The notes beneath the pieces were generated by a model that did not search any database, was not told where the DNA came from, and saw only the letters and a list, made by a program, of their open reading frames with translations. A program made the translations under genes and the position numbers. A stretch of DNA of 64,000 bases from Spartobacteria bacterium (GTDB lineage: Bacteria > Verrucomicrobiota > Verrucomicrobiia > Chthoniobacterales > UBA10450): positions 144,193-208,192 of the forward strand of contig PMTM01000009.1 of assembly GCA_003167365.1 (NCBI GenBank), read 5' to 3'. Shown piece after piece: positions 20,599 to 63,905 of the stretch; positions within the stretch are counted from its first letter, which is position 1; each line of letters starts with the position of its first letter.

Positions 20599-22101
20599 CT
20601 AGCGGCCGTATAGAAAAACTGCGACCCCGCCGATCACGATCACGGCGATGCCGACATAAAGCCACACCAGCGCGCCAGAGCCCGCCGCGTCGCCACGGCT
20701 ATACGAAGCTCGGTCGAACGATCGACCACGGATGCGGCCCTTCCGCAAAAAACCGTCGTAATGCCGCTGGATCAAATGCGTTTCCACCTGACGCATCGTG
20801 TCAAGAATCACGCCCACGATGATAAGCAAACTAGTGCCGCCAAAAAATTGGGCGGTGATTTGCGGCACGTGCAAGCCCTGACTAAGAAGGCTCGGCAAGA
20901 TCGCGATCAAGGTTAGAAATATTGCGCCGGCAAAAGTGAGCCGGGTCATGGTGAAATCGAGAAATTCCGATGTTGGTTTGCCCGGTCGAACACCGGGGAT
21001 ATAGCCGCCGTACTTCTTCAGATCGTCGGCGATCTGCGAAGGTTGAAACTGCGTCGCGACCCAAAAATAACTGAAAAAGAAAATCATCGCCGCGAGAAAA
21101 ACGTAATGGGCCCAGCCGGTGGAAAGCATGTCCGCGATCTGTTTGGCGACGCGACTGTTCTTGAAGGCGAAGCCAAGAATCTGAGTCGGAAAAAGCAAAA
21201 TAGCCCACGCAAAAATGATCGGCATGACACCCGCGTAATTCACTTTCAAGGGCATGTATTGCGTTTGTCCGCCGTACATTTTTCGGCCGACCACGCGCTT
21301 GGCGTATTGCACGGTGATTTTCCGCACGCCTTGCGTGATTGTGATCACTCCCGCGATCACCAAAAACAAGAATGCCACCATCAGGACAAGGATCGCAGGA
21401 CTCACCTGACTTGTTCCCGTTTCCGCTGACGGCACAAATGTCTTCCATGCCTGCGCCAGGGCCGCCGGCAGGCGCGCCACAATTCCAATCGTAATGATGA
21501 GCGAAATACCGTTGCCGATTCCACGCTCCGTGATTTGATCTCCAAGCCACATCAAAAAAAGTGTCCCCGTTGTCAGTGAAATCACCGTCACGACCCGGAA
21601 TGTCCATCCGGTGTCTTCAACCAGCGGGACCCCAAGATTTCGAATCGTGTCGCTAATTCCTCCCAGAACGGTGTGATACGATTCCGGATGTTGGAACGAC
21701 ACGGCGAGGAGGTAGCCCTGAAAAATACACAGCACCAATGTCGCGTAGCGCGTGTATTGCATGATCTTTTGCCGGCCGCCATCCTCGCGCGCCAACCTTC
21801 CCAATCGTGGAATCACGGCCGTTAAGAGTTGCATCATAATCGACGCACTGATGTACGGCATGATGCCGAGCGAAAAAATCGCGCAATTCTCCAGCGCGCC
21901 GCCACTAAACAAATTGAATAACGCCGCGACTCCGCCGCTTCTATCAGCGGAAGTGCGAAACCACTCCTGAAGCACGGCTGAATTGACACCCGGTGTGGTG
22001 ATCGCTGCGCCCAACCGCACAATCACGATCACGGCCAGCGTGAACAGAATCCGGCGGCGAAGTTCCGGTATCTTGACCGTGTTGAGGAACGCCGAAACCA
22101 T
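20599..22101 (-). CDS. secY: Protein translocase subunit SecY
   Basis: SecY is the channel of the Sec translocon. About ten membrane segments are visible. Conserved pieces include PYISASIMMQLLTAVIPRLGRLAREDGG, ITERGIGNGISLIITIGI, KRVVGRKMYGGQTQYMPLKVNYAGVMPIIFA and GGTSLLIIVGVILDTMRQVETHLIQRHYDGFLRKGRIRGR. At 500 residues it is somewhat longer than E. coli SecY because of periplasmic-loop and C-terminal insertions. The position after rplO is standard. Confidence 0.97.
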   Translation of the reverse strand: MVSAFLNTVKIPELRRRILFTLAVIVIVRLGAAITTPGVNSAVLQEWFRTSADRSGGVAALFNLFSGGALENCAIFSLGIMPYISASIMMQLLTAVIPRLGRLAREDGGRQKIMQYTRYATLVLCIFQGYLLAVSFQHPESYHTVLGGISDTIRNLGVPLVEDTGWTFRVVTVISLTTGTLFLMWLGDQITERGIGNGISLIITIGIVARLPAALAQAWKTFVPSAETGTSQVSPAILVLMVAFLFLVIAGVITITQGVRKITVQYAKRVVGRKMYGGQTQYMPLKVNYAGVMPIIFAWAILLFPTQILGFAFKNSRVAKQIADMLSTGWAHYVFLAAMIFFFSYFWVATQFQPSQIADDLKKYGGYIPGVRPGKPTSEFLDFTMTRLTFAGAIFLTLIAILPSLLSQGLHVPQITAQFFGGTSLLIIVGVILDTMRQVETHLIQRHYDGFLRKGRIRGRSFDRASYSRGDAAGSGALVWLYVGIAVIVIGGVAVFLYGR

Positions 22102-27498: not shown

Positions 27499-27632
27499 AA
27501 TCTAGTGCGTCATCCCGAACGTAGTGAGGGATCGCTCAAATGCGCCCACGTTTTCCGAGAGCAACCCGCTCGATAACATCGAGAGATTCTTCGACTCCGC
27601 TTCGCTCCGCTCAGAATAACAATTCATAAAAA
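27499..27632. repeat. Inverted intergenic repeat inside the S10 operon
   Basis: The only large gap within the S10 block separates rplV from rpsC. It holds GTCATCCCGAACGTAGTGAG (from 27509), and further on the opposing arm ending CGCTTCGCTCCGCTCAGAATAAC (to 27620), that is, a head-to-head pair of the common GTCAT-CCGAGCG-AAG-GGATCTC type element. A 23-base segment starting at 27509 recurs exactly, inverted, at 63852-63874. It could fold into a long hairpin in the mRNA. Confidence 0.8.
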
Positions 27633-28127: not shown

Positions 28128-28919
28128 TTATTTTAAAGTCACATTCGGGCGGGTCTCCACTTGAAGACGGTCGCCCACTTTTATTTGTTCTTTTCCAGAA
28201 TCCATCTCTTGAATCACCGCGCCGCAAATCCGTTGCCGGACATCGACCACTCGAAGCGTTGCGATTTTTTTGTCGCCGCGCATCACGCGCATCGGCATTC
28301 CGATTTTCACGCCCTGTTTTTCGCCGAGATTGCCGACCACAAACGACCATTCGTCTTTCACACTGATCACGCTGCCGTCCATCAAGCTCGGCTGTGCTGA
28401 TTGCGGAGAAGTCGTTGTCGATCTTGTCGCGATCTCGTTGGCCTTGCGCAATTGCGTTTCCACGTCCATTCGCGCCTGCGCATCGCCGCCCTGCGACGTC
28501 TTCAAATATCGCAACATCGATTCGTTGAGCCGCAACATTTGATCTCGAAATTCGTCGCGCTCTTTGTTCGCCAACTGCAAATCGCTCACCGCAGTCAACA
28601 AACGTTGCTCCAGCTTCGAGCGATCCTTGTTCGCCGATTCGAGCCCTAGCGCTTCCATTCGCAATTGCAGATCGGAATACTTGCGGCGAAACAATTCCGC
28701 TTCGGCGTTCGATTCCGCCAGGCTGCTCGTCACAGTCTTGAGCGATTCCTGTTGGATCGACAATTGCCGGCGCAGTTCTTCATTCTGCGCAAGCAGCGTC
28801 GCCGCCGTCACGGTCTGTCCCGCGTTTTCAATTTTGGATTCTGACAAAGAACTATTTCCCTCTGCCGCTAGCCCTCGAGCCAGCGTTACGCAGCCCAACA
28901 CTGCCCAAACAAATTTCAA
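28128..28919 (-). CDS. Secreted coiled-coil protein inserted between rpsS and rplV
   Basis: This 263-residue protein does not belong to any ribosomal family. The TTG start directly follows the rpsS TAA, with AAGGTG as ribosome-binding site inside rpsS; the stop directly precedes the rplV ATG. The first 20 residues (KFVWAVLGCVTLARGLAAE) are a signal peptide. Residues 40-165 are a coiled coil (LLAQNEELRRQLSIQQESLKTV, LEQRLLTAVSDLQLANKERDEF). The last 90 residues form a beta-rich domain (VKDEWSFVVGNLGEKQGVKIGMPMRVMRGDKKIATLRVVDV) resembling barrel domains of MreC/FlgT-like envelope proteins. The role is unknown; an envelope location is likely. Its tight coupling to ribosomal genes is unusual. 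Confidence 0.8.
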   Translation of the reverse strand: MKFVWAVLGCVTLARGLAAEGNSSLSESKIENAGQTVTAATLLAQNEELRRQLSIQQESLKTVTSSLAESNAEAELFRRKYSDLQLRMEALGLESANKDRSKLEQRLLTAVSDLQLANKERDEFRDQMLRLNESMLRYLKTSQGGDAQARMDVETQLRKANEIATRSTTTSPQSAQPSLMDGSVISVKDEWSFVVGNLGEKQGVKIGMPMRVMRGDKKIATLRVVDVRQRICGAVIQEMDSGKEQIKVGDRLQVETRPNVTLK

Positions 28920-29198
28920 TTATTTCGTCACCTTCGCCGTGTGCGAACCGTGTTTCTTAAACACTCGCGTGGGCGAAAATTCACCGAGCTTGTGACCCAC
29001 CATGTTCTCGGTCACGAAGACGGATTGAAAAATCTTTCCGTTGTGAACGAGAAACGTGTGGCCGACAAAGTCCGGCGTCACCATCGAGCGCCGCGACCAG
29101 GTCTTGATCGATTTTTTCGCGCTCGCGTTGTTCATTTTGTCGATCTTTTCCAGGAGATGCGACTCGACGAAGGGTCCTTTCTTCAACGATCTAGACAT
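28920..29198 (-). CDS. rpsS: Ribosomal protein S19
   Basis: S19 in the 30S head contacts S13 and the A-site finger. It is a standard 92-residue protein: [42 protein letters not shown] and [18 protein letters not shown]. The 10-mer at 29138-29147 encodes its LEKIDKM. Its stop codon touches the start of the inserted coiled-coil gene, not rplV as is usual. Confidence 0.97.
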
Positions 29199-63738: not shown

Positions 63739-63905
63739 AGGCTTGTACCGCCACTGCCTCTCTTCCGTGTCATCCTGAGCAAAGCGAAGGATCTCTCAAA
63801 AACTTGTTGATCCTCAGTGAAACGAGCGTGACACAATCTTCGAATGCGAGGTCCCTCACTACGTTCGGGATGACAGTGCTAGTTTAGAAGGAAGGAATAA
63901 CGATT
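63739..63905. repeat. Head-to-head GTCATCC-type repeats between the scaffold gene and sufT
   Basis: GTGTCATCCTGAGCAAAGCG (from 63765) is followed by the opposing arm CCTCACTACGTTCGGGATGAC (to 63874). The 23 bases at 63852-63874 are an exact inverted copy of 27509-27531 in the S10 operon. Such elements are common spacers in soil bacteria; their mechanism of spread is not visible here. Confidence 0.8.

Follow-up and report, generated by a model that had tools for sequence, protein, structure and literature searches.

The S10 operon of a Spartobacteria bacterium (Verrucomicrobiota; Chthoniobacterales; assembly GCA_003167365.1, contig PMTM01000009.1) raises the question of why a gene for a putatively exported protein lies between rpsS and rplV, and whether its coding sequence serves the protein alone. 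The gene occupies 28128-28919 on the minus strand of the window (i.e., the whole stretch of 64,000 nucleotides (nt) analysed here) and consists of 263 codons from a TTG start to a TAA stop, being identified as an open reading frame (ORF) with same-place homologues in relatives. A preliminary description of this stretch, which gave no strand for the gene, had dwelt on the encoded protein; the most unusual feature of the locus, which it missed, is a hairpin-boxA RNA element over the 5' coding region. We propose, with a probability of roughly 0.6, that this element is a NusB-S10 (boxA) site nested in coding sequence, which probably shields transcription of the distal S10 and spc genes from Rho.

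A synonymously invariant boxA-like string

Synonymous divergence (dS) was unusually low in the first 35 codons of the gene, despite a high ratio of nonsynonymous to synonymous divergence (dN/dS) there, because throughout the window's family the string AGTTCTTTG(T/A)CAGAATCC shows almost no variation; the leader sequence preceding it varies. Moreover codons 23-27 (AGT TCT TTG TCA GAA; 28839-28853, minus strand) form a synonymously invariant block: across 60 related species, codon identity was 100% wherever the residue was kept, whereas the 159 other conserved codons averaged 0.65 and the 53 other Ser/Leu/Arg codons did not exceed 0.91. The boxA-like element itself (AGTTCTTTGTCA; 28842-28853, minus strand) was recognized from this codon invariance together with its recurrence across classes, its enrichment and its membership in the sequence class of ribosomal RNA (rRNA) operons.

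At the DNA level, GTTCTTTGA turns up in this position from class to class, with a hairpin immediately before it, and in other families and classes it persists while the protein context shifts (TGTTCTTTGAAG, CGTTCTTTGAAT, CGATCTTTGACAGA, CGCTCTTTAAAA and others). Within 230 nt after the rpsS stop codon, the core G[ACT]TCTTT[AG][AT] was found in 19 of 46 loci made non-redundant by clustering at 55% identity, compared with a mean of 0.46 after shuffling (maximum of three in 300 shuffles), one of 525 other operon windows and none on the antisense strand. A conservative count is 17, which leaves out a frameshifted second member of the window's family and locus L153, where the match is in another frame and may be due to chance. 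The site lies within ~60-210 nt of the rpsS stop codon, where it extends over the gene's first codons. Two further observations were set aside: a hairpin-boxA-like match at locus L255, which resembles an intrinsic terminator with a fortuitous match after it, and the absence of boxA from 27 loci that lack the gene, which was dropped as evidence of linkage since the gaps there are mostly very short.

An internal promoter for the distal operon, with TTGACA or TTGTCA as its -35 hexamer, might also keep such a string invariant. In the window's family TTTGACA and TTTGTCA do contain or resemble the sigma-70 -35 hexamer; beyond the family, however, the core is GTTCTTTGA or CTCTTTAAAA and the hexamer is broken (TTGAAG, TTGAAT, TTGATG, TTTAAA). 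A shared -10 box was not seen among these sites, and the covarying hairpin just upstream is an RNA feature, which together leave a promoter scarcely credible.

A covarying hairpin directly upstream of boxA

The hairpin (CGCUGGCU-CGAG-GGCUAGCG; 28866-28885, minus strand) was recognized from covariation and from its predicted fold, and it takes a boxB-like position directly upstream of boxA, the spacing between the two being 1-10 nt among carriers. When 49 sequences were aligned without gaps, 87% of cells were paired (21-56% when the alignment was slid), seven of the eight pairs had undergone two-sided changes, and the covariation score was 0.466, compared with at most 0.225 for slid and an average of 0.309 for shuffled alignments. 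Furthermore, in 13 sequences from other families both the outer and the apical stem covaried (90.6% paired; score of 0.507). A second hairpin in the predicted fold of the window's family, in which boxA pairs with the upstream GGCAGAGGG, displayed no covariation and served as negative control.

These data bear on a reading in which the invariance is due to translation or to the protein, the codons either acting as slow codons after the signal peptide or encoding a required Ser-Ser-Leu motif. Such a role would fit the observation that the string is always in one frame, reading x-Ser-Leu after the leader. On the other hand, the codons are identical even though the leader around boxA is among the least constrained parts of the protein (dN/dS of 0.2-2.3); moreover the hairpin shows covariation, and the rRNA boxA of the phylum has a matching sequence (see below). 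We thus consider a purely codon- or protein-level role very unlikely.

Likeness to boxA of rRNA operons

Strings of this kind, CGTTCTTTGAAAACT, AGCTCTTTGACATCC, GGTTCTTTGACAATC and TGTTCTTTGAAAACT among them, occur in rRNA leaders and 16S-23S spacers across the phylum, several with a hairpin 1-3 nt upstream, and the phylum core GYTCTTTGANA is matched in relatives (GTTCTTTGACA and others). In the window's own genome, TGATCTTTGATAGTT is located ~345 nt before the 5' end of the 16S gene; moreover GWTCTTTGWYAG occurs at only five sites in that genome, one being in the rRNA leader, 323 nt upstream of the 16S gene on its strand, and another being the S10-operon site. Relative to GYTCTTTAANA, a gamma-proteobacterial consensus that may differ elsewhere, the window boxA has two differences. 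In the Akkermansia-like genus no boxA string was found near the 16S gene in four genomes, save one at -457 in one of them, nor at the S10 site in the two loci examined.

The boxB-boxA order is listed for rRNA leaders (PMC10931766), where NusB-S10, bound to boxA, keeps Rho from terminating transcription (PMC10931766, PMC5725501). The S10-operon element shares with this antitermination system (NusB-NusE/S10) a hairpin with (N)GYTCTTTGANA no more than a few nt downstream, but differs in that it sits in protein-coding sequence of a ribosomal-protein operon and in that its binding by NusB-S10 is a prediction. Messenger RNA boxA elements tied to Nus factors, S10 being NusE, provide a second parallel: boxA represses translation at E. 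coli suhB, and a putative boxA lies upstream of rpsJ in some gamma-proteobacteria (PMC5725501). Those elements are in 5' leaders, at most 50 nt from the start codon (PMC5725501), whereas the Verrucomicrobiota boxA lies within the S10 operon, downstream of rpsS and over codons ~20-50 of the next gene, and occurs in several classes. A literature search that left most subscription journals outside its reach returned no paper on the rpsS-rplV gene or on a boxA inside the S10 operon.

Antitermination as the probable function

The hairpin and boxA thus combine conservation beyond the protein code, covariation and the arrangement of rRNA operons, and we infer from them the binding of Nus factors. Under the antitermination reading, RNA polymerase moving on from rpsS would transcribe the hairpin-boxA, which would recruit NusB-S10 and then NusA, NusG and SuhB, and the polymerase would become Rho-resistant through the remaining stretch (rplV, rpsC and onward to the spc genes). 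The protection would fall where the messenger RNA would be left bare by a membrane-targeted gene with poor initiation (TTG in this genome). Furthermore, with the S10 gene at the start of the operon, the site could tie distal operon output to free S10.

The same components could instead bring about repression: NusB-S10 would block translation of the gene, and the resulting uncoupling would let Rho stop the distal genes at excess free S10, an autogenous circuit like that of E. coli suhB. That boxA acts so at suhB and occurs, putatively, upstream of rpsJ (PMC5725501) speaks for such a circuit, as do the position of the site over the first codons of the gene and the ability of boxA to pair with the upstream GGCAGAGGG in the predicted fold of the window's family. 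However, the site is downstream of rpsJ and hence could exert no direct block on S10 translation, and the alternative pairing with GGCAGAGGG lacks support from covariation. Repression is a serious but rather unlikely reading, and between antitermination and a feedback of free S10 on the distal genes we prefer the former as probable, the latter being doubtful.

Several points weigh against antitermination by a nested boxA: i) 27 of the 46 non-redundant loci, Akkermansia-like ones included, have no strict-core match, so that the element is not universal among carriers of the gene; ii) the window boxA (GTTCTTTGTCA) has T at the tenth position, where the rRNA boxA (GTTCTTTGACA) has A, and this T is common to most of the window's family; iii) a covariance model built here failed to match rRNA sites beyond boxA itself; iv) all plausible matches share one reading frame, for which reason a codon-level cause or role retains some small probability; v) efficient translation of the gene, if it occurs, would set ribosomes and NusB-S10 in competition for the site.

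An old resident of the S10 operon

Purifying selection on the barrel-encoding part of the gene is strong (in comparisons with relatives dN/dS was mostly 0.02-0.11, two pairs being not computable), which establishes the ORF as a real gene; selection on the coil was weaker (dN/dS of 0.10-0.25). A frameshift, which the preliminary description had named as part of its refutation, or an assembly artefact is excluded by the many independent genomes that carry the gene.

Homologues occupy the same position in the order, in the class and in other classes of Verrucomicrobiota, as the preliminary description had suggested checking. All intact loci examined, which came from the order, from most of its class and from several further classes, had a homologue between rpsS and rplV, and the arrangement rplB-rpsS-gene-rplV-rpsC was found in every locus of the order and class sets that had both flanks; in other classes most of the fetched homologues were likewise between rpsS and rplV. 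A protein search detected the gene in 35 of 39 relatives. A scan of a collection of 84,980 species genomes returned 102 relatives, the best 80 of the 102 being Verrucomicrobia, Chthoniobacterales (including Ca. Udaeobacter) or members of the Planctomycetes-Verrucomicrobia-Chlamydiae (PVC) group; class names in the whole-genome searches are indirect assignments. In an even sample of 135 genomes of the phylum, a match to the barrel profile was found directly downstream of rpsS in 43, a count taken from comparing two tables by eye. As far as seen, the protein family is confined to Verrucomicrobiota.

Distances of the gene tracked those of rpsC and rpsS (Mantel r of 0.49 and 0.56, p of 0.001), as vertical descent would give. 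With its position and gene order conserved, the gene appears to have held its place between rpsS and rplV from an early stage of Verrucomicrobiota evolution. Four further genomes kept gene-rplV-rpsC and had rpsS and rplB elsewhere (loci L220, L231, L233 and L234); in these the break in the S10 operon falls upstream of the gene, and at L231 tatA- and tatC-like ORFs lie directly upstream of it. In several lineages rpsS adjoins rplV without the gene. Two reduced genomes (0.9 Mb) of the same order have a non-coding gap of 148 or 313 nt at the rpsS-rplV site (L167, L168), possibly a decayed gene, and at L163 (1568-2308) a gap ORF that had no full-profile match encodes a signal peptide plus a degenerate tail resembling the barrel.

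Spacing and expression

In the window the gene abuts both of its neighbours, as the preliminary description had stated: the TAA of rpsS (S19; 28920-29198, minus strand) immediately precedes its TTG, and the ATG of rplV (L22; 27633-28127, minus strand) immediately follows its TAA, both neighbours being assigned from their ORFs and translations. This zero spacing holds for the window and varies among relatives. Across 145 homologous loci the gap from the gene to rplV was exactly 0 in 24 and -1 in eight, 0-15 nt in 76 and more than 15 nt in 61; the gene order is conserved, and zero spacing is common yet no rule. The claim that the gene must be translated with the ribosomal proteins had been drawn from spacing, which is not exactly preserved in relatives. 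Farther downstream, the gap between rplV and rpsC (27499-27632, plus strand) contains a dispersed-repeat-like sequence, TCATCCCGAACGTAGTGAGGGATC, of which a second copy with one mismatch is found at 63850-63873 (minus strand), where none would be expected by chance.

Expression at the level of ribosomal proteins, also put forward earlier, found no support. The TTG start is unique to this gene among the 23 genes compared (secY to rpsG), and its codon adaptation (0.675) falls both within the range of ribosomal genes and within that of other ORFs of the window, making codon usage uninformative as a sign of high expression. Shine-Dalgarno strength was equally uninformative, a simple scan giving none for most neighbours. 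Co-transcription of the gene with the S10 operon would be expected from its position.

An exported envelope protein made at ribosomal-protein level and coupled to ribosome synthesis had been judged unusual; the location within the S10 operon is confirmed and conserved, and a precedent for an envelope-protein gene in such a place exists in secY of the spc operon (20599-22101 in the same cluster of the window). SecY is universal and of known function, in contrast to the rpsS-rplV protein.

Architecture of the encoded protein

The signal peptide, coiled coil and barrel-like tail described earlier agree with a hydrophobic leader and with the helices and beta-barrel of an AlphaFold2 model. Codons 1-19 (MKFVWAVLGCVTLARGLAA; 28863-28919, minus strand) encode the N-terminal hydrophobic peak, with cleavage probably before E20, and such a peak (signal or anchor) was present in most homologues; the protein is thus likely exported and located in the envelope. 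The coiled-coil region covers residues 39-169 (28413-28805, minus strand; helices 39-90, 100-141 and 147-169) and is followed by a small six-stranded barrel at residues ~178-256 (28152-28388, minus strand), the mean predicted local distance difference test (pLDDT) value being 72 overall and ~70-83 in the barrel. Some lineages lack the coil altogether, which leaves ~130 residues including the barrel, and elsewhere its length differs. In the window's family the leader (first 30 codons) repeatedly resembles repeat strings (NFRFSIFDFRL, LSTLNYLLST, SAICxLxSA; L009, L018, L020, L021, L040, L047 and others), and signal peptides seem to have been remodelled by repeats there. Many genomes also encode, at other places, paralogues with a coiled coil and the same barrel, often two in tandem with ~260-300 residues (L002 856-1761, L273 3478-5120).

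Searches of Pfam, NCBIfam, PDB sequences and Rfam gave no annotation above threshold. In fold, the barrel matches the C-terminal domain of FlgT (PF16538; VIA-align Z of 10.4-10.8, root-mean-square deviation of ~2 Å over 73-75 residues), but its sequence stays below the Pfam cut-off (best E value of 0.012, for three of eight members), and the N-terminal and middle domains of FlgT are missing. A PF16538 profile search of the genome had no match. The fold is a common one, since N-terminal barrels of F1/V-type ATPases score nearly as high as FlgT_C.

MreC (PF04085) has a similar outline of membrane or secretion signal, coiled coil and beta-barrel, which together with a Foldseek match to Listeria MreC (E value of 2.9e-4) and an apparently conserved co-expression with a growth-rate-regulated operon could point to an MreC-like periplasmic scaffold for wall growth, whose placement in the S10 operon would pace envelope growth with ribosome production. 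However, the rpsS-rplV protein has one barrel where MreC has two, it gave no PF04085 match in the Pfam scan, its short forms lack the coil, and a separate true MreC is encoded in 32 of 34 genomes tested. The window's own genome is among these 32, its MreC gene being G000:C23, by which replacement of MreC was rejected; two Akkermansia-like genomes (G131 and G099) keep the gene and have no match to the MreC profile, a further point against the scaffold reading, which we consider improbable. A role as envelope scaffold is a guess from architecture.

Implications for ribosome synthesis in Verrucomicrobiota

The locus provides a concrete case of a putative envelope protein kept by evolution inside a core ribosomal operon. 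More tentatively, at somewhat less than even odds, an rRNA-type hairpin-boxA in the signal-peptide end of the gene may in many Verrucomicrobiota let S10 and NusB decide on completion of the distal operon, coupling envelope-protein and ribosome synthesis through overlapping RNA and protein codes. Verrucomicrobium spinosum and Akkermansia muciniphila are feasible organisms for testing these ideas, Akkermansia being a natural contrast that seemingly has no boxA in either the S10 operon or the rRNA leader. Regulation of ribosomal-protein operons beyond E. coli and Bacillus is largely open, and the hairpin-boxA suggests a control of ribosomal-protein synthesis unseen in model bacteria: a boxA in the S10 operon of several classes, overlapping coding sequence, would, if true, link rRNA-type antitermination to ribosomal-protein synthesis.
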